Assembly: GCA_025399215.1 (NCBI GenBank)
Contig: MU621257.1
Coordinates: forward strand, 22,007 to 38,862
Origin: Globomyces pollinis-pini
Lineage: Eukaryota > Chytridiomycota > Chytridiomycetes > Rhizophydiales > Globomycetaceae
Length of the DNA stretch: 16,856 nucleotides
Reading direction: 5' to 3'
Of the stretch, positions 1,924-16,856 are shown one piece after another (positions within the stretch are counted from its first letter, which is position 1; each line of letters starts with the position of its first letter). The notes under the pieces are model-generated. The model did not search any database. It was not told the origin of the DNA and saw only the letters and a program-made list of their open reading frames with translations. Made by a program: the position numbers and the translations under genes.

Positions 1924-3936
1924 CTATACTTGAAATGAATGGGGTTCATTGCGTTTAACAACTTGTCTTTCTCCCTTCACTTTATCAACATACTTTCTCT
2001 GATAACCGTAAAATTGTTCTACTGCTTTCGTTGTATTATATCGGTGAATAATTTCATCCTCTTGCATTATACCAAATGGATGCTTTTCCAGTTTTAATCC
2101 TGCATCTAACCATTCTTTCTGAATAATAATTGTTGCAAACTCTATTGATCCAATAGATACTACTGTAAATGGAGACACCAATTTCACACCCAAATTTCCC
2201 CATATAGATTCTTGATTAAACGTCTCATACTTGTTAATGTGCCCAAGAAGAAGTTGCTGCTTCACTCTATCACACATCTGTTAATATATTGAATAAATTA
2301 CCCGTCTTTTTTGATTGCCGAATTTTTAAAGACTGCACACGTTCCTTTCCGGATCACGAAAGCTGTCGCCAATGTCTGACCTTCTCTAATTAACACCGTG
2401 TCTTCTTTGGCTTGCCGTACGACCGTTTTATCTGCCACCTGTTTCAATGATTTTCGATCCATAGCTGAAAATAAAGAAACTTTCTTGAGAAATGTCATTT
2501 TGTCAGTGGTTTCGTGTTTATTGGCAGGTCCCATCAATCGAATAAATTGTGGTTTGTCCAGGGTTATAAATGTACAATGATCACTACTGATGGTGACAGA
2601 TGTACTTCGAAGTAAATCATTCAATAGAGCCAGATCTCCAAACTTATCTCCTTCTCTCATGGCTGCCACTGGAATCTGAGGGATTGGAGGAGGTCCAGGC
2701 CAGCCTGGTTTGTTGATTGAAATCGAGATCGTTCCTTCCAAAATAACATACCTAATGGTTAACATCATCAGCTAATACCATTTGTCCCCAGGATCACCTT
2801 GGTAAAATAGTATATGATCTTTCGGGTAACTGACCACATTTAACTCCTTGGTTAAATGTGGAAATATATATTCCGGTGTAGTTTGAAATGCAGGTAAGAT
2901 ACGCAGATAATCATCAATTGATCGTCGTTGTTCTTTTGTTCTCAAATCTTTTGGTAAACGCAAATATTCAATAAACGTTTGTTTATCAATCATTTCACGT
3001 TTCTTTCGATTCAAAGTATCAATCTTTTTAAAGACTACATGTGCTTCTGATGGATGTTTTTGATCAAGTGCAAATTTGACTCTTGCAATAGAATCGGTTG
3101 CTAAAGCAGAAGCTACTTTCCGTAAGAATACTTGTTTTGTTTCTGGTGGAGGTAATTTAGGTGTCTCTCTCTTTACTTTTAATGCTTGACCTGACATATT
3201 GATGATTGGGTTATATTACCTGATAATCGATACCAAGTATCTACTTCAAATCCATTATATAATTTTTTTGGTTTAGGTTTATCATGAACTATATCCAATA
3301 TACTCTGTAATCGAACCTATATATAGATATAACAAACTTTGAATGGTATAGTTACCTTATGAATGTGTTGACTATCATCATATACGTCAGCATTACAATT
3401 GAACGATTCTTGTTGTAACAAATCACGTAATTGATCAAACATGATAGATTCTTTACTAACTTTTTTTACCAATTTAGTTTTCTTTTTAGAATTCTTCATA
3501 CTTTGTAATAAATCTTCATAATATTCGAAATCGTAAGAATATTGATTACTTATTGAATGTGTAATTGCTAAAGGATTTCGACTTGTATTTTTTTGTGCAT
3601 TTGTTAAACTTGGAAATGTATATTTCTTTTTAGATGTTATTAAACTACTATCAATAGGTTCTTGTTCCACAACATCTTTTGATTTATTTTGTTTTAACTG
3701 TCTTTGTAAAGGTGAATATCTAGACTCTTTAATAAAAATCAAAAGTACAATTCAATTTGTATATCACCTTCAATATCAATTAATTTTCCAATCTTGCTTT
3801 CTCGACTAATTGTTATATAAACTATTGTTTTTTTTTACCATTTGGTATATTCTTTTACAGTTTTTAATTCTGATTTCCTAAATGATAGATTTTCAGCTAT
3901 ATCTACCACCGTATTATCCAATTTACTGATCACCAT
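1924..3936 (-). CDS. Double cyclic-nucleotide-binding-domain protein, copy A (CNBD2-like)
   Basis: Seven exons, 602 residues. Introns: 3838-3806 (33 nt), 3767-3727 (41), 3355-3317 (39), 3219-3191 (29), 2778-2752 (27) and 2301-2267 (35). The ATG at 3936 is the first in frame and aligns with the starts of copies B and C through the shared block ENLSFRKSELK. The N-terminal third is Lys/Ser-rich, with SKESIMFDQLRDLLQQ near its end. A linker with RTKEQRR and PAFQTTPEYIFPHL follows. The first cNMP domain contains ILFYQGDPGDKWYVILEG and a phosphate-binding-cassette-like FGDLALLNDLLRSTSV: the Arg is kept, and the usual Glu is Asp. A Pro-rich insert (PGWPGPPPIPQIP) precedes the cassette. A second, degenerate domain has VLIREGQTLATAFVIRKG without a clear cassette. 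CNBD2-type proteins are linked to flagella and sperm in animals; ligand binding here is unproven. Confidence 0.88.
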
Positions 3937-4603: not shown

Positions 4604-7600
4604 TCAACTATAAACTTTCAAAGGTAAATCAGGATGAATATCCTCATATTCCTTCAAAATCCCAAAGATAGCAGTATGATCAGAAATCATGGTACGACTG
4701 ACAACAACTTCCTGGAATTCTTCCTTGGTAGCCCATCGCGGGAGGTAAATGTATTTGGAGTCTACAGAAATGTGGGTGACGTAGACGATACGTTCCTTGA
4801 CGACATCTGTAAAGGCTTGTAAGGATTTTTGACCTCGTTTGCGTTTGATGGGTTCAGGGTCGGTGGGGATGATATCCGGGTTGGATTTGTATTTTTGGGT
4901 AATATCTTTAAGTTTTTCGATATAGAGGATACGACCGGGTATAAACATGGGACTGGTTTCGGATTCGAAAACAGGTTCGAGGTATGCATGTGAAGTTTCA
5001 TTAACTTTCCAACGTTTGGGGATAGATAGTGTCGTGGCACGAATACGATCATATTCGGTATTGGAGACTGAATATTTACGAATACGCACTTCAGGATCCA
5101 CAGGTTTCGTTTTCAATTGGTTGGATAAAATTGATCCAAAAATCTGATACTTTGCTTGATTGGAATGATTTAATAATCTACCAACATCTGCCTTGAGAAT
5201 TTCCAAGGATCGAACAGTGGTACGTGATACAACATCATCCCCTCCAACGATAGATATACAGAAATCGTTGAATAACCCAGAAGCCTTTTCACTGGTACAA
5301 CCACCAGGCATTGCATATGCATAACATCTTGTTTGCATATACCCATGTTTTCGTAACATGTAGGCCACAAAGGCTGCCACTCCCCCACCCAATGAATGAC
5401 CACATACTACAATACTATACTTGGACACACGACTACCATTAAAAATGAATCAATTACCTATCACGATTACCCATAATATTTTCCAAAATATGATTGGATA
5501 AAATATCAGCAACAATATTTTTAGCAGTTCGTAGAAATCCAGAATGAACTTGATACGATTCCGGATCCGGTAAATCCTCATCCAAAATTTCCGGATCCAA
5601 TTTCAAATCAACAATGACATCAGCAGCAGAGTACGTACCACGGATAGCAATCACAATCGAATTCCAGTCATGGTCAAGTGATACCAAATAAGGTGATTGG
5701 AATAAATCATTTAATGGTGAAAAATGAATCAAAACATCCATTTTACTTTGAACTTCATTATCAAGTTGTACATAGGCCATATTTGCATAATGACAGAAAT
5801 GAATCACATCTAGTATATCTGGTCGTTTCATTTCGATTTTGGATTGATTGGGAACACTAAAGGCATAAGAATTAAATGTCCAATCAAGTTTTTGTCGTTG
5901 TTTTTCATAATACTCTAATTGAAAATTTTCAACCACATTGGCATTGGCAATCACATCTTCAGATCCAACTGCATACGATTTGGATTTGTTCAAACTTTTG
6001 ACTCGATCAACAGAGGAAGAGTAGAATGCACTGGTAGGTCTTGGTTTTTTGTTTAACGTTAATGGTCGCATTTCAACTGTTTCTGGTGCTGAATTGGGTG
6101 GGTCTAATAGTGTGGCCAAACTGGATTGTGATTGTTTACTCTCATGCACAGGTGAATTGTATAATTGGTTGGATTGACTTTCTTTACCCTTGTGTAGGTC
6201 TGTATTAACCATCAAACTAGATTCTTCATGTGATCCAACAATGTTTTGGGTAACTTTGTTAGCATATTCTTGTAAAGTAGCTACACTAGGTAAATGGCTC
6301 AAAGATAATCGTTGTGACGGATGATGCTCTTTAGGACTTCCAGATTGATCTGAACTGTCTTCCCCTTCCAACACATTAAACGAAAAAGTTTGCATTTTGA
6401 TGGAATGATCAACGTGATTGCCTTTGATAACTGATGGTTGAGGATCAACATCCGGTTCGATTTGTGATTTACGACGATGAACTTGATTACGATTCAAAGA
6501 TTCATGTTGATACCAGTTTGACCAATCATGATCATCATTTAATCCTGCATTTCGTAATTCTAGGGATATTAATTTGAATTCATTACCTGTTACATCACGT
6601 ACTATTTTCTGTTCTTGCTTTAGTAGAATTAATCCAACAGCCATATCAGTAGGCGCCTAATATTAGTATTTTTTTAATCTTACCCAATCAACATCTTTAA
6701 AATATTTGGCAAGTGATTGTGAAATAGATACGATAACAGCTTGAGTCTCACTATGATCACGATGTGTTTCTTTTGTAAAAAACCTAACCATTATTTTAAA
6801 TTCAAAAACCATTCAATTCTTCGTTTCCATAGTTTTAAATAATCATTCCAATCCTTATTCACCATATTCTTTGCCTTGGATCCCCAAACGAATAGAGAGA
6901 GTGCCACGAAATAGATGAATGCGGATACAAAAGACCAAAAGATGACGATACGGACCAAAGTCAATGAAATATCAATTTTGGCGTTTTCAGTACATTTCAG
7001 TAAATTTTCAACTGGGATTGGATCGTAAATAACATAAAAACCTATCGTTACATTTTAAAATTAGCCATACCTAATTATAAAGTGATTAAAAATAAAACTA
7101 TTATACCTAATAATGAATCAGTCTTTGAAATTTCAAACCAAAAGCTTGTACCACCACTTCCAACACCACCAAAACAAAATGTAAATGTGCAAATACACTA
7201 GTATAAACCAAGACAAAACAAACCCGATATTTTCTCTCGGTTTTGGATCACTAATCGTTCCTGACATTGAAATTTTGATTAGTATAAATTCATTGATGAT
7301 AAGAACAAGTAACAGGATGGTAGAAGCTATAAGAAAGAGACCAACGGTATCAGTTGAAATACAAGAGTCTATAATAACTGCACCCAATGTGAAGACCAGA
7401 AATATTAACCTGTGAATATGAATTGGAATGAAAGAATACCTAATGATTAGTTAGTATTCTGTACCTTTAATGAATCAATATTAAATCGATACCTTTGATT
7501 AGATAATTAAAATCCAAACCTATGATTAGATAATGGAATTCTTATACCTATGAATTATAAACCATTACAAAAAACAAACCTATGATTAAATCAAACCAAG

Positions 7601-7841
7601 ACAAACCTAAAACAAATGAACAGAAACAGTATGAATACCAGACGAGTCTAAAAAGCAAAGAGAGGAATGCGGGTAAATAAATATCATCAGGAGCCATATC
7701 AATGACCCTATCGAACAGGACTAAACGACCCTACAACACAAGTCTTAACATTTTTCGACTTACCATTTGTATTGTATAGTAAAGTGAAACGGTGAAAGAA
7801 AGCAAGGACAGTGGCTTTTGGGACCCCAAAAACCCGAACAT
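4604..7841 (-). CDS. sn-1-specific diacylglycerol lipase (DAGL-like, class 3 lipase)
   Basis: Predicted membrane lipase cleaving diacylglycerol to 2-monoacylglycerol and fatty acid. Eight exons: 7841-7764, 7730-7639, 7409-7224, 7197-7139, 7041-6810, 6783-6684, 6656-5458 and 5432-4604. They sum to 2775 nt, giving 924 residues. The N-terminus carries the DAGL signature (APDDIYLPAF, like SDDLVxP) and about four hydrophobic helices within the first 240 residues. DVDWAPTDMAVGLILL matches the family's SDLDLVPSDIAAGLALL block. A Ser-rich, probably disordered stretch precedes the alpha/beta-hydrolase domain. The nucleophile is Ser662 in GHSLGGG, the likely acid is Asp715 in GGDDVVSR and the likely base is His901 in SDHTAIF, so the catalytic triad looks complete. 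Two introns are tandem micro-intron chains, annotated separately; the others are 25-33 nt. The start is uncertain: 7841 is the first ATG in frame, but the frame is open upstream to about 7990, so an unseen 5' exon is possible. Confidence 0.9.
7042..7138 (-). other. Compound intron: three micro-introns in tandem
   Basis: A 97-nt intron of the DAGL-like gene that divides without remainder into three GT...AG units: 7138-7107 (32 nt), 7106-7071 (36 nt) and 7070-7042 (29 nt). Donors are GTTTGA, GTATAA and GTATGG; acceptors are ATTAG, ATTAG and GATAG. Removing all three joins QAFG to FYVIYDPIP in frame. The exon base flanking the 5' side is G and the exon resumes with GT, so the junctions read AG|GT throughout. 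Confidence 0.8.
7198..7223 (-). other. 26-nt micro-intron of the DAGL-like gene
   Basis: Begins GTTTGTTTTG and ends TACTAG. Its removal joins PRENIG to VFAHLHFVLVVLEV, which fits the DAGL segment following the PRKS-type motif. Reading straight through gives a competing open frame (GFVLSWFILVYL) that soon stops, so the splice decides the frame here. Confidence 0.75.
7410..7638 (-). other. Compound intron: eight micro-introns in tandem with no exon between them
   Basis: A 229-nt intron of the DAGL-like gene that partitions exactly into eight consecutive GT...AG units: 7638-7607 (32 nt), 7606-7580 (27), 7579-7548 (32), 7547-7520 (28), 7519-7493 (27), 7492-7465 (28), 7464-7440 (25) and 7439-7410 (30). 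Donors are GTATTC, GTTTGT, GTTTGT, GTATAA, GTTTGG, GTATCG, GTACAG and GTATTC. Acceptors are TTTTAG, TCATAG (three times), TCAAAG, TTAAAG, CATTAG and TCACAG. Units 2, 4, 5 and 7 share a 3' end like CTAATCATAG, suggesting common descent. Full removal joins LLFRLVW to LIFLVFTLG in one transmembrane helix and preserves the 924-residue frame. Retaining the whole 229 nt would shift the frame. Confidence 0.85.
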
Positions 7842-9016: not shown

Positions 9017-9389
9017 TATAAAGGGAAGTGAATAATAAAGTCGGCGTTCTTATTGAAGGGTATATGAAACAAAGGCTTGTTCCAACACTTGTAACTAGTA
9101 TAGTAGTACTTTATTTAGTGATAGTAATAATACTAATAGTAACCCAATGAGTAGTTAGGTTACTTTATGATGAATACTTGGGTTACTATGATGTTGTACT
9201 TGGGGTTAGTAATTAATAGTTAGGGTTATTTTTGTTAGGGTTAATAGTACTATTAGGGTTATTTTGTAGTTAGGGTTACTACTACTATTAGGGTTATTAT
9301 GAATAGTAGTTAGGGTTATTTTGTAGTTAGGGTTAGAGTGAGTGGTAGTTAGGGTTAGTGATCCAACTTTTCTTCAGATCAAAACAAAA
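9017..9389. promoter_or_regulatory. Divergent promoter between the GPI-protein gene and CCT3
   Basis: This 373-bp gap separates the ATG of the minus-strand GPI-protein gene from that of CCT3 and should contain both promoters. The CCT3-proximal half is dominated by TTAGGGTTA repeats, listed separately. The GPI-gene-proximal half is AT-rich and shows no such motif. No RNA gene or open frame was supported. Confidence 0.7.
9220..9357 (+). repeat. Eight irregularly spaced TTAGGGTTA motifs upstream of CCT3
   Basis: Exact TTAGGGTTA starts at 9220, 9235, 9253, 9270, 9288, 9310, 9327 and 9349, with start-to-start spacing of 15-22 bp. All lie on the plus strand, reading toward CCT3. Decayed relatives (TTGGGTTAC, GGGGTTAG, AGTTAGGTTAC) occur at 9150-9210. 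Spacers are rich in TAGTA/ATTTTGTAG. This is not a perfect 6-bp telomere tandem. It looks like an amplified promoter element or a decayed interstitial telomeric tract. Confidence 0.85.
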
Positions 9390-11607
9390 ATGGCTATGAA
9401 TCCAAATGTTATTGTAATGAATACAAATATGGATAGACAAACTGGTCATAAAGCTCAAGTATCAAACATTCAAGCTGCAAAGGTATTTCTTATCTTAATA
9501 CTATATAAACTATCTTATATCTATCTAATTATAAAATACTAACAATAATAGACTATTGCTGATATCATAAGAAGTTGTCTAGGACCTCGTGCTATGCTAA
9601 AAATGTTACTCGATCCAATGGGGGGAATCGTACTCACAAACGATGGTAACGCTATCCTAAGAGAATGTGAAGTCCCGCATCCTGCTGCTAAATCAATGAT
9701 CGAACTATCAAGAACTCAAGACGAAGAAGTCGGTGACGGTACTACTTCTGTCATCATCTTGGGTATCCATTGAATCTCTCATCCTTGTAGCTGGTGAAGT
9801 CCTCGCTGCTGCTCTCCCTTTCTTGGATAGACACATTCATCCTACTGTCATCATCTCGGCCTTCAAAAGAGCTTTGGAAGATTCATTAGAAATCTTGAAT
9901 GAAATCTCGGTTCCAGTAAACATTAACGAAAAAAAAGAAATGATGAAATTAATTCAATCTTCCATCGGTAATCTTGAATTGATTCATCCTTAGGTACTAA
10001 AATGGCTTCCAATTGGAGTGATCTCATGTGTGGTCTCGCTTACGATGCTGTCAAAACTGTCGTCTTGGAAAAAAATGGAAAAAAGGAAATCGATATTAAA
10101 CGTTATGCTCGTGTCGAAAAAGTAATCAATTACTATTCTTTTCCTTTTTAAATCATCATCAATAACCTTTAAATCACTACTATCAACTATTTGAACCATG
10201 TTTTATTAAATCACTATTCATTAAATCAATACTTGAACCATATTCTATTAAATCACTACTTTAAAAAATTGATTTGATCTATTCCACTTGAAATCATGTG
10301 TTGTTATTTGATCTAACTGATCACTGAAACAGTTTGATCTAACATGGACCACTTGATCAAACATTTTTAATAATCAAATTCTAACATTATAGATTCCTGG
10401 TGGTTTAGTTGAAGATTGTTGTGTACTCGATGGAATTATGGTCAACAAGGATGTCACCCACCCAAAAATGAGACGTAGAATCGAAAATCCTAGAATTGTT
10501 TTATTGGATTGTCCTCTTGAATACAAAAAGGGTGAATCTCAAACAAATGTCGAAGTCACTGATGAAGCTCATTGGGCTCGTTTACTCGAAATTGAAGAAG
10601 AACAAGTCAAGGCTCTTTGTGATGAAATTATTCGAATGAAACCTGATCTGGTCTTTACCGAAAAAGGAGTCTCTGGTATGTTTTTATTGATTCTATACTC
10701 TTTATAACAAACAAATAACAACAATATTGTCACAAACACTTTTAGTGTTTGTAAAATGGGTTGATCTATACACAAACAAATAACAATCACCAAAAATTGA
10801 ATCTATTTTCAAACAAATACTAATTAAAATATAGATATTGCACAACACTACTTGCTCAAAGCAAACATCACTGCTATTCGTAGAGTCAAGAAAATGGACA
10901 ATTTCCGTATTGCTCGTGCTACTGGTGCCACTATTGTCAACCGACCTGAAGAATTAAAAGAATCAGATGTAGGAACTGAATGTGGTCTCTTTGACGTTCG
11001 TAAAATTGGTGATGAATACTTTTCATACCTTGTGCAATGTAAAAATCCAAAAGCATGTACCATTCTTTTACGTGGTCCATCAAAAGATATTTTACAAGAA
11101 TTAGACCGTAATTTACAAGATGCTATGGCAGTAGCTCGAAACGTTATGTTTGAACCTAAATTATCTCCTGGTGGAGGTGCTACTGAAATGTGCTTATCTG
11201 TTCGATTAACCGAAAAATCAAAGACATTGACTGGAGTTCAACAGTATCCATATAAAGCCGTTGCTACTGCCTTACAAGTCATTCCACGTACTTTGGTTCA
11301 AAATTGTGGTGCCAATGCCATCAAAGTCCTCACCGACCTTCGAGTAATTCTTTTAAATTAATCATAGGCCAAACATGCTGCACCAAACAATTCATCATGG
11401 GGAGTTGATGGTACTACTGGTAAAGTAGTTGATATGCATGAATATGGAATTTGGGAACCTTATGCAGTCAAATCACAAACTTTAAAAACTGCAATTGAAT
11501 CTGCATGTTTATTATTACGTGTGGATGATATTGTATCTGGACTTTCCAAAGGACGAGGACCTAGTGCTCAACAAGCTATTGAACAAAATGAAATGATGGA
11601 ACAATAG
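9390..11607 (+). CDS. CCT3: T-complex protein 1 subunit gamma (CCT3), cytosolic chaperonin
   Basis: Gamma subunit of the TRiC/CCT ring chaperonin that folds actin, tubulin and other cytosolic proteins using ATP. Seven exons give 546 residues, matching the family's usual 540-550. Introns: 9483-9551 (69 nt, with TACTAAC branch point), 9763-9790 (28), 9968-9993 (26), 10122-10392 (271), 10676-10834 (159) and 11344-11367 (24). Group II chaperonin landmarks are LDPMGGIVLTNDGNAILRE, the nucleotide-binding GDGTTS, KIPGGLVEDCCVLDG, RRVKKMDNFRIARATGA, and GGGATEM before the C-terminal WGVDGTTGKVVDM. The 28-, 26- and 24-nt introns are certain because conserved protein (VIILAGE, SSIGTKM, LTDLRAKHAAPNN) is rebuilt exactly across them. 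The start gives MAMNPNVIVMNTN, close to the family N-terminus. The promoter carries the TTAGGGTTA array. Confidence 0.97.
10122..10392 (+). other. 271-nt CCT3 intron with internal diverged repeats
   Basis: The longest intron in the window. It contains repeated words: TTAAATCACTA about four times (10170-10260), GAACCAT twice (10193 and 10234), and TTTGATCTA three times (10270-10345). It has a single 5' donor and a terminal CTAAC...TAG acceptor. There is no internal AG|GT junction, so unlike the DAGL arrays it cannot be divided into consecutive micro-introns. Confidence 0.75.
10707..10786 (+). repeat. Direct repeat and hairpin inside a CCT3 intron
   Basis: A 15-bp word, ACAAACAAATAACAA, occurs at 10707-10721 and 10772-10786. 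Between them lies a perfect 9-bp inverted repeat, ACAAACACT ttt AGTGTTTGT, at 10732-10752. Both sit inside the 159-nt intron. This could be a duplication remnant or a small RNA hairpin; no function is evident. Confidence 0.7.
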
Positions 11608-12850: not shown

Positions 12851-14844
12851 ATGAGTGGTCGTAAAATACTGGATATTGCAGAAAATTTGAATTTTCGGAA
12901 GTCGGAATTAAAATCTGTTCAGCAACATAAAAAACAGTAAAAATGAATATTAAATTAAAATACAGTCGAGAAGAAAAAACAGGAATAGTGGATGATGTAC
13001 AAAAAGAATTTGAAATTGAAATGTACAATGAATTCAAATTAAATTTTATAGTCTATCACCATTGGCAATAATTAGTGAAGAAAACCCTATGAGAGTTTCT
13101 AGAAATTATCGACAAGGTCAAGTAATAGGTTTCCAAAAATTGGAAGCACATCCAAACAAAAAACAATACAATTTAACCGCAATGAAATCAGAAAAAAAAT
13201 CGGCATTACCAATGATTCAAGCAATGAGTAACCAATATTCTTACAATTTCGAATACTTGGAGGATTTGAAGAAATCCTTTGAGAATTCAAAAAAGAAAAA
13301 GAAATCTATAAAGAAAATTAGTAAAGAATCTATCATGTTTGATCAATTACGTGATCTATTGCAACAGGATACATATGAATGTGATGCTGATATGTATGCA
13401 GAAACTGAACAGATCCATAAGGTGATTATTATATTCAATCTAACAATAATAGCTTAGATTACAGGGTATAATGGATATCGTAAAAAACAAACCTAAACCA
13501 TGCAAACTCTACAATGGGTATCAAGCAGACACTTGGTATCGATTATCAGGTAATACAAACATATTCAATGTTTCAGGTCAGGCTTCAAAGGCAAAAAAGA
13601 TTACCCCAAAGTTACCCCCACCAGAAAGCAAACAAGGTTTCTTACGAAAAGTAGCTTCAGCATTACCTGCTGATTCTATTGCAAGAGTCAAATTTGCACT
13701 TGATCAAGAACATCCATCAGAAGCACATGCCGTCTTTAAAAAGATTGACAAGTTGAATCGAAAGAAACGTGTCATTATCGATAAACAACTGTTTATTGAT
13801 TTGTTACAGTTACCGAAGGATTTGAGAACAAAAGAACATCGTCGCTATATTGACGATTTTTTACGATCATTACCTGCATTTCAAACCACTCCAGAATATA
13901 TATTTCCACATCTGGCCAAGGAGTTAAATGTGGTCAGTTACCCGAAAGATCATATACTATTCTATCAAGGTGATCCTGGAGACAAATGGTATGTGTGTTT
14001 GCCACTGACATACATATTAGGTATGTTATTTTGGAAGGAACGATCTCGATTTCAATCAACAAACCAGGCTGGCCTGGACCTCCTCCAATCCCTCAGATTC
14101 CAGTGGCAGCCATGAGAGAAGGAGATAAGTTTGGAGATCTGGCTCTATTGAATGATTTACTTCGAAGCACATCTGTCACCATCAGTAGTGATCATTGTAC
14201 ATTTATAACCCTGGACAAACCTCAGTTTATTCGATTGATGGGACCTGCCAATAAACATGACACCAGTGAGAAGATGACATTTCTTAGGAAAGTTTCTTTA
14301 TTTGCATCGATGGATCGGAAATCATTGAAACAGGTGGCAGATAAAACGGTAGTACGACAAGCCAAAGAAGACACGGTGTTAATTAGAGAAGGTCAGACAT
14401 TGGCGACAGCTTTCGTGATCCGGAAAGGAACGTGTGCAGTGTTTAGAAATGTCACGTTCAAAAAAGGGTACTTGATCCATATGATTGATTATTTTTAGAT
14501 CAAGTGAAGTAACAAAGCAAATGCTATTGGGTCACATCAACAAATACGATTGTTTCAATCAGGAATCGATATGGGGTAATATGGGTGTCAAAACAGTATC
14601 TCCATTTACAGTAGTATCCATTGGATCAATAGAATTCGCTACAATTATTATTCAGAAGGAATGGTTAGATTCAGGATTGAAAGTAAATACACATCCATTT
14701 GGAACAATGAAGAATGAGGAATTGGTTAGACGGTATCATACTACAAAGTATGTTGATCAATTTCGAAGCTATCAGAAAACGTATATTGATAAGGTGATTG
14801 ATGAGCATAATGCTTCCAAACCTTATGAACTGCATTCTTATTAA
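12851..14844 (+). CDS. Double cyclic-nucleotide-binding-domain protein, copy B (CNBD2-like)
   Basis: Complete seven-exon paralogue of copy A, 604 residues. Introns: 12937-12965 (29 nt), 13023-13051 (29), 13422-13452 (31), 13550-13576 (27), 13989-14020 (32) and 14468-14498 (31). The start MSGRKILDIAENLNFRKSEL aligns with the other copies. Domain order is the same: Lys-rich N-terminal region, linker RTKEHRR, first cNMP domain (FYQGDPGDKW, then FGDLALLNDLLRSTSV at about residues 378-393), second degenerate domain (VLIREGQTLATAF), and tail GSIEFATIIIQKEWLD. The fourth intron is 27 nt and stop-free, so retaining it would only insert nine residues. Much of the cNMP-domain exons is nearly identical in DNA to copies A or C, in blocks, pointing to gene conversion. 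Its fifth intron differs completely from that of A and C. Function is inferred from the family only. Confidence 0.9.
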
Positions 14845-15641: not shown

Positions 15642-16856
15642 ATGCACAATCATAGGGTGATCGATATCGTAGAAAATCTACCACTTCGAAAATCGGGATT
15701 GAAATCTGTTCAAGAACATATTAAACTGTAATTTGTGTCGAGCTAAAATAGAGTCGAGAAGAAAAAATTGGAATAGTGGATGAGATAGATAGTGAATCTA
15801 AAATGGAAACGTAAATTGTTAAACTTATTGTATAGCTTTCTACCACTTGTAAAGGTACAAGAAGAAGTGCAAGTAAGTTTAGCAACAAATGATCGACCAA
15901 ATCGGATGGTGGATTTTCAGAAAATGGAAAGTCATGTAAATAAGAAACAATACAATATGTCAAAAGTGAAATCACAGACTGGATTGCCAATGATACGAGC
16001 AATGAGTACTCAATATTCTTACAATTTCGAATTTGAAGATTTCAAAAAATCCGTTGAGAGTTTAAAGAAGAAAAACAAATCGTTAAAGAAAGTTAGTAAA
16101 GAATCAATCATCTTCAATCAATTGCGCGATTTGCTCCAACAGGATACATATGAAGGTGACGCTGATATGTATGAAGATAGTGAACAGATCCATAAGGTGA
16201 TTATTATATTCAATCTAACAATAATAGCTTAGATTACAGGGTATAATGGATATAGTTAAAGGCAAACCTAAACCATGCAAACTGTACAATGGATATCAAG
16301 CAGACACTTGGTATCGCTTATCAGGTAATGCAAACCAATTCAATGTTTCAGGTCAGGCACTAAAAGCAGAGAAGAATACCCCAAAATTACCTCCACCAGA
16401 AAGCAAACAATGCTTCTTACGAAAAGTAGCTTCAGCATTACCTGCTGATTCTATTGCAAGAGTCAAATTTGCACTTGATCAAGAACATCCATCAGAAGCA
16501 CATGCCGTCTTTAAAAAGATTGACAAGTTGAATCGAAAGAAACGTGTCATTATCGATAAACAACTGTTTATTGATTTGTTACAGTTACCGAAGGATTTGA
16601 GAACAAAAGAACATCGTCGCTATATTGATGATTTTTTACGATCATTACCTGCATTTCAAACCACTCCAGAATATATATTTCCACATCTGGCCAAGGAGTT
16701 GAATGTGATCAGTTACCCAAAAGATCATATACTGTTTTACCAAGGTGATCCTGGAGACAAATGGTATTAGCTGATGATGTTAACCATTAGGTATGTTATT
16801 TTGGAAGGAACGATCTCGATTTCAATCAACAAACCAGGCTGGCCTGGACCTCCTCC
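15642..16856 (+). CDS. Double cyclic-nucleotide-binding-domain protein, copy C (partial, runs off the window)
   Basis: Third paralogue, in tandem with copy B and cut by the window end inside the first cNMP domain. Introns: 15728-15753 (26 nt), 15811-15835 (25), 16197-16227 (31), 16325-16351 (27) and 16764-16790 (27). It starts MHNHRVIDIVENLPLRKSGL and then follows copy B. From about 16170 to 16760 its DNA is nearly identical to copy B, including an identical 31-nt third intron. Its fifth intron, however, is identical to copy A's 27-nt intron and unrelated to copy B's. The last visible codons encode INKPGWPGPP. The second domain and C-terminus lie beyond the window, so I cannot say whether this copy is intact. 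The role is presumably the same as its paralogues, a cyclic-nucleotide sensor or structural cNMP-fold protein. Confidence 0.88.

Follow-up and report, generated by a model that had tools for sequence, protein, structure and literature searches.

Spliceosomal introns that abut one another with no exon between them have been described in fungal small nucleolar RNA (snoRNA) clusters, where juxtaposed introns form an "intron-intron-intron" arrangement (PMC3596301). The spliced cluster products (n = 42) fit removal in the 5′-to-3′ direction: intron I was missing from 18, introns I and II from 14, and all three from 10, while no product lacking II or III had kept I. Here we describe a similar arrangement in a 16,856-nt stretch of the Globomyces pollinis-pini genome (hereafter the window; GenBank assembly GCA_025399215.1, contig MU621257.1, positions 22,007 to 38,862), namely a 229-nt gap at 7410–7638 on the minus strand that separates two exons of a diacylglycerol lipase-like (DAGL-like) gene. 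As in the snoRNA clusters, putative fungal GT...AG introns abut with zero exon bases between them. The snoRNA clusters have non-coding hosts, three juxtaposed introns in the analyzed case, and a reported origin by internal exon loss, whereas the chains reported here lie in protein-coding genes, run to as many as 10 units, each about 28 nt long, and bear signs of duplication. Origin by loss of exons between snoRNA introns does not fit this locus, given that no Rfam family was found in the window and neighboring units are duplicate-like.

Other described systems share parts of this architecture. Recursive splicing relies on abutting acceptor and donor sites (AG/GT) that allow stepwise removal (PMC8605326, PMC5126111), and such juxtaposed 3′ and 5′ splice sites within an intervening sequence occur here at seven internal AGGT positions. 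The known ratchet points divide long metazoan introns, whereas each unit here is the size of an ordinary intron of this genome and the six chains closed by homology (below) total 118–289 nt. Dual-specific sites, at which AGGT acts as both donor and acceptor, include a tandem run in human UBC (PMC10809524), and by sequence context the internal junctions here are donor-like at +3 and acceptor-like in their TAG. The UBC units are coding and their splicing is variable, whereas the units here are non-coding and the protein needs removal of the whole chain; the lower scores given there for dual-specific human AGGT sites parallel the weaker +3 position of our chain units. Stwintrons are also complex fungal intervening sequences in which several introns are removed by consecutive reactions (PMC8469720, PMC7138796). 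They are described there as nested and excised from the inside out, whereas the units here lie side by side, so that the order is free in principle; each is complete, and no internal intron splits an external splice element. Finally, tandem duplication can yield new introns, and the cited model contains a shared AGGT (PMC4974935, PMC2395259). The cases described there involve duplicated exonic, exon-spanning, or intron-containing repeats, whereas here the intron alone appears to be duplicated, at its own border. Exon-less juxtaposed introns and dual AG/GT sites are thus already known, and the first-pass annotation went too far in stating that no standard class exists (PMC3596301, PMC10809524). 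Long micro-intron chains in protein-coding genes are apparently new; no chain of many micro-introns in such a gene was found among the titles and abstract openings listed by searches of the open-licence PMC literature.

We consider it likely that the 229-nt gap consists of eight functional micro-introns arranged head to tail, which would be removed stepwise and would have grown by duplication followed by divergence; that the units serve individually as introns, and in what order they leave, is what we infer from the sequence. The features of the locus are as follows.

4604..7700 (approximate limits), minus strand: multi-exon host gene, diacylglycerol lipase-like (lipase class 3), assigned from PF01764 and homologues.
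End at 7639, minus strand: exon upstream of unit 1, ending ...CTCGTCTG.
7607..7638, minus strand: unit 1, 32 nt, first micro-intron, from the tiling; TRAY branch-like motif absent.
7580..7606, minus strand: unit 2, 27 nt, ending TAATCATAG, an acceptor end common to units 3–5.
7548..7579, minus strand: unit 3, 32 nt, with the GTTTGT start seen in unit 2, ending AATTCATAG.
7520..7547, minus strand: unit 4, 28 nt, ending TCTAATCATAG.
7493..7519, minus strand: unit 5, 27 nt, whose 3′ half resembles unit 4 (ATTATCTAATCA).
7465..7492, minus strand: unit 6, 28 nt, from the tiling.
7440..7464, minus strand: unit 7, 25 nt, with CTAACTAATCATTAG inside, from the tiling.
7410..7439, minus strand: unit 8, 30 nt, last micro-intron, with a CACAG end; TRAY motif absent.
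Start at 7409, minus strand: exon downstream of unit 8, beginning GTTAATATTT.

The reverse complement of 7410–7638 admits a single tiling by GT...AG units of 20–35 nt, with lengths of 32, 27, 32, 28, 27, 28, 25, and 30 nt from 5′ to 3′. The first-pass annotation had read the gap in this way, as micro-introns chained through zero-length exons, with eight GT...AG units of 25–32 nt accounting for every base, and the unique tiling bears this out. When units of 15–60 nt were allowed, 34 tilings resulted, and the ten printed were the eight-unit tiling and mergers of its units. The chain contains seven internal AGGT, every one at a unit border. An AT-rich intron that abounds in GT and AG might tile by chance, an explanation that we regard as practically negligible for a chain of this length. 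None of 20,000 shuffles of the chain interior with dinucleotides kept could be tiled by units of 20–38 nt, so the shuffled control that the first-pass annotation had proposed came out in favor of a real chain, and together with the genome-wide spacing control described below this rules out chance tiling of long chains. Shorter pieces fared differently in the same test: the first four units tiled in 8 of 20,000 shuffles, three units in 5 of 5,000, and two units in as many as 376 of 5,000. Consequently, only long chains are strong evidence by themselves.

The identity of the host gene rests on a PF01764 match to the translation of 4604–5449 and on 16 homologues of the exon at 5454–6656: PF01764 or more is present in 14 of them, and UniRef names two as sn-1-specific diacylglycerol lipase. 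A homologue from Kappamyces sp. JEL0680 matches 44% of the query at 60% identity; the other named homologues are from Boothiomyces (two, 63%) and Rhizoclosmatium (two, 41–42%). Kappamyces and Boothiomyces both belong to the chytrid order Rhizophydiales. Paralogues of the gene were noted at C232 and C42.

Joining the exons across the gap (CTC GTC TG upstream, G TTA ATA downstream) rebuilds a Trp codon, and this Trp is shared by the homologue P0012 (JGI source). The joined peptide aligns with P0012 without a gap over 90 residues (24 identical, 55 positive). Reading frame and alignment thus uphold the earlier view that the whole chain has to go, and they indicate that the protein requires excision of the entire 229 nt. 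Retention as coding sequence was rejected, as each of the three frames through the 229 nt is interrupted by stops; when units were retained one at a time, the frame stayed open for unit 8 and for no other. If the homologue is left aside, a seven-unit chain with a 10-residue exon extension, in which unit 8 is kept, would be readable as well; the ungapped P0012 alignment supports removal of unit 8. Two further candidates were rejected: an RNA structure joining the chain ends, as the 229 nt fold no better than shuffles (z −0.20), and a non-coding RNA, as Rfam gave no match within the window at the gathering score. The same gene holds a second, shorter chain.

7042..7106, minus strand: second chain of the DAGL-like gene, two abutting units, 7106–7071 (36 nt) and 7070–7042 (29 nt).

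Downstream there may be a further unit, of 30 nt; the frame is preserved whether 65 or 95 nt are taken out.

The genome that was searched comprises 459 contigs and 18.5 Mb; the window, short loci, and stretches amounting to 186 kb, some chosen and some blind, were read as letters. In the closure test, exons were joined without the whole chain and then compared with known proteins, with end units sought within 20–36 nt only. Six chains were closed by homology.

DAGL-like: 8 units, 229 nt; ungapped 90-residue alignment to P0012.
CHMP3/Vps24: 10 units, 289 nt; alignment to CHMP3 without gaps, Snf7 domain.
PHYHD1-like: 10 units, 285 nt; alignment gap-free at the join.
HIPK/CLK-like kinase: 5 units, 138 nt; alignment without gaps.
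MCM8: 6 units, 163 nt; alignment with a gap of one residue, three residues away from the join.
Gpi1: 4 units, 118 nt; single PF05024 match spanning the join, 2.7e-42.

All 43 units of these six chains measure 25–32 nt, for chain totals of 118–289 nt. The coding score alone favored a different border in three of the six (CHMP3, PHYHD1-like, and MCM8), and there the choice of border is due to the homologues rather than to the coding score. Two cases are weaker: a four-unit chain in a WD-repeat gene, read by eye, with a WD40 match below the curated cut-off, and a nine-unit chain in a GDSL lipase gene, with PF00657 below cut-off and an ambiguous first border. Across the 23 chains examined in 15 stretches, a frame-keeping closure existed in 18 and none in 5; two of these five were closed later (one by eye), and L031 (plus strand) stayed unclosed.

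The genome search that had also been suggested in the first-pass annotation returned many similar chains. Triples of TAG/GTW junctions numbered 148 at 24–32 nt, compared with 0 at 37–45 nt and 4 at 14–22 nt, and the 100 of these 148 matches that were listed represent at least 63 separate chains after merging. Reversed TAG/GTW gave 31, 27, and 25 at 24–32, 37–45, and 14–22 nt, respectively, with no preference for the unit spacing. Plain AGGT triples numbered 693 with units of 23–32 nt versus 155 at 37–46 nt. An AGGT run of about 42-nt spacing from this spacing control, at C1:21710-21966 (minus strand), is probably a coding repeat. Chains with at least four junctions numbered 18 among the matches listed (C1 to C16:42559, about 2.6 Mb, partly estimated), or about one per 140 kb; a 140-kb blind sample contained no chain of at least four junctions, in agreement with this rate.

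Chain units were then compared with single introns of the same genome. The chain set held 129 units from 41 chains, comprising the window and the 81 rows kept from 100 listed (of 693), the other 19 having been dropped by eye as coding repeats, doubtful, or duplicate. The 105 single introns (103 distinct; 67 from blind stretches) came from a simple gene-model pass without splice-site scoring, the codon statistics of which derive from earlier passes with splice-site scoring. This ab initio model, which left intron length free, gave a peak at 24–35 nt but also many doubtful long introns that seemingly skip exons, and it was used for single introns and examples only. The branch-like motif TRAY occurs in a fraction of 0.70 of chain units and 0.68 of single introns, compared with 0.43 and 0.46, respectively, after shuffling. 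A TAG acceptor is present in 94/129 chain units and 80/105 single introns. In both signals, chain units thus look much like single introns. With the dropped rows restored, the TRAY excess persists (97/160 vs 0.40); the similarity and donor tests below use the 81 kept rows and the window.

Similarity between units bears on the origin of the chains. Over 88 adjacent pairs the mean score was 1.72, against a permutation mean of −0.66 and a maximum of 0.59 in 1000 permutations; after removal of the most repetitive chain it was 1.06 versus −0.73 (maximum 0.46). Neighbors are therefore more alike than chance, which points to tandem duplication. The proposal that one intron was copied repeatedly holds clearly at C12:42083 (two identical neighboring units), C8:155151, and C68:15928 (neighboring units a few bases apart), applies in part to the DAGL-like chain (units 2–5), and fails for several long chains of unrelated units. 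C12:42085-42369, C68:15928-16040, and C60:58969-59091 are young-looking chains in which neighboring units are identical or similar. Separately, a four-unit chain in L035, from about 2657 (plus strand), has a 3′ half common to units 1 and 2 and a 5′ part common to units 3 and 4, a pattern suggestive of two independent duplication events.

Within the DAGL-like chain, the similarity of units 4 and 5 is equaled by just 0.24% of between-chain pairs, and Tandem Repeats Finder (TRF) reports a 27-nt repeat with 88% matches at 7483–7534. The acceptor-side likeness proposed in the first-pass annotation is evident in the TCA[TA]AG end of 4/8 units, compared with 5/223 other units and introns (binomial 1.6e-5), for a motif picked post hoc following that remark. 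On the donor side, the shared GTTTGT of units 2 and 3 stands, whereas GTAT starts are not evidence of copying, because they are frequent in all introns here (70/223 introns and units generally). The mean similarity over all 28 unit pairs of the chain is suggestive only (p = 0.064).

A different origin would be repeated insertion of different introns by reverse splicing at AG/GT, each insertion creating a new target, with no tandem duplication involved. Five chains invite this reading (C1:20690, C4:31807, C4:120622, C7:65414, and C10:106064), as their units are no more alike than random introns (p 0.49–0.89). We nonetheless find it improbable, since neighbors overall are more alike than chance and are identical or nearly so at C12:42083 and C68:15928. 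Moreover, the best between-chain unit match scores 13, about the same as the 12 between different single introns, and no dispersed unit copies were seen among the units from 81 of the 693 matches and the 103 distinct single introns. As regards introner-like elements, which are near-identical introns scattered over different gene positions, a 281-nt region matched only itself in the genome, and units of different chains showed no strong similarity within that sample. The five chains of unrelated units, each of at least four units, carry TAG in 28/32 units and TRAY in 24/32 (vs 0.41 shuffled, p 1e-4), a persistence that probably reflects selection on each unit.

Several observations weigh against reading the chains as runs of functional micro-introns. 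At the genome level, the reversed-letter control for plain AGGT triples gave 1292 matches against 693 for the pattern itself, an excess that we think is due to TGGA repeats common in coding DNA; because this control exceeds the pattern, the spacing controls were used instead. The 140-kb blind sample contained 4 AGGT chains of at least three junctions, compared with a Markov mean of 1.3 and maximum of 5 (40 runs), and other permutations of the AGGT letters gave 0–17. Short chains hardly exceed chance, which is likely to explain many two-unit cases. At the level of units, the likeness in length that supports the earlier remark on ordinary intron size (28.7 ± 2.3 nt for chain units, 28.7 ± 3.1 nt for single introns, 28.1 ± 2.2 nt for single introns within 23–32 nt) is in part a product of the search, which was set to 23–32 nt for chain units. 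TRAY, found in 6/8 units of the DAGL-like chain versus 0.43 shuffled, is not significantly enriched there (p 0.07), and the selection argument is weakened because the chains were found by their junctions. T at donor position +3 is commoner in chain units (34/129 vs 6/105 single introns, Fisher p 2e-5), making the inner donors weaker. Moreover, long introns without tiling are predicted to exist in this genome: a TCP-1/cpn60 (TCP-1-like) gene of the window (plus strand) has predicted introns at 10122–10392 (271 nt) and 10676–10834 (159 nt) with no inner AG/GT tiling, and several others are 58–77 nt. A chain might thus leave in a single step. The 271-nt intron was also seen to hold repeats of a TTAAATCACTA-like word.

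Some of these points lend weight to the view that the gap is one long intron, grown by tandem duplication and excised in one step from outer donor to last acceptor, with the inner GT and AG as relics. The tandem similarity of units fits this view, as do the predicted long untiled introns and the relaxed +3 position of internal donors, and finding chains by their junctions under-samples decayed ones. Relics should decay, yet branch-like motifs and TAG persist in the five chains of unrelated units, and TAG/GTW triples are absent at 37–45 nt spacing; we therefore judge single-step excision unlikely, though it deserves to be kept in mind. The +3 excess is not accounted for by exon context, as single introns following an exonic AG have T in only 2/29. 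Weaker donors may be tolerable at a dual site, or they may indicate that a donor which fails is bypassed.

Weak internal donors would also fit a model in which the first donor alone is active and pairs with any acceptor, the last acceptor being needed for full removal. The authors of the published fungal case leave this possibility open as a second option for juxtaposed snoRNA introns (PMC3596301). Internal donors here keep a donor look, with A at +3 in 85/129 chain units and C in 0/129, unlike the dropped coding-repeat rows (A in 9/32, C in 5/32), and we hold this model to be very improbable.

In the reading that we favor, eight functional micro-introns removed stepwise, every unit would be a minimal complete spliceosomal intron, equipped with a donor, a branch site, and an AG of its own. 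Units would be taken out singly by the spliceosome, most likely from 5′ to 3′ by analogy with the fungal snoRNA clusters, and each excision would regenerate an AG/GT or exon/GT junction to serve the following step. Any donor could pair with any later acceptor to give a shorter chain or the finished exon join. As all routes would give an identical mRNA, extra units would cost little. Over time, an intron would duplicate in tandem and its copies diverge, with selection maintaining the spliceability of each unit.

Two further features of the window were noted. At 9220–9358, just upstream of an ATG near 9390, eight telomere-like TTAGGGTTA motifs occur at irregular spacing; TRF calls them imperfect repeats, and they are possibly promoter elements. 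The window also carries a cyclic nucleotide-binding domain gene in three copies that closely resemble one another, with PF00027 checked on one of them.

1924–3751, minus strand: cyclic nucleotide-binding domain gene copy.
13032–14844, plus strand: cyclic nucleotide-binding domain gene copy.
15789–16770, plus strand: cyclic nucleotide-binding domain gene copy.

Together, these findings suggest that introns in this chytrid appear to multiply in place while the entire chain is still cleanly removed. As a tentative proposal, which we find plausible without quite expecting it to hold, the chains would represent a self-extending intron class that multiplies near-neutrally in place and is spliced stepwise like a zipper, in runs of up to ten units within protein-coding genes. 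If true, introns could be gained in this way with no need for exon material or a transposon. Intron gain is an old open question, and chains ranging from identical to unrelated units would make such multiplication countable. The chains would also be natural substrates for studying if the spliceosome is able to pass through many zero-length exons, in what order, and if units of about 28 nt are recognized singly. Gene-finders that bar zero-length exons may misannotate the genes that carry them.

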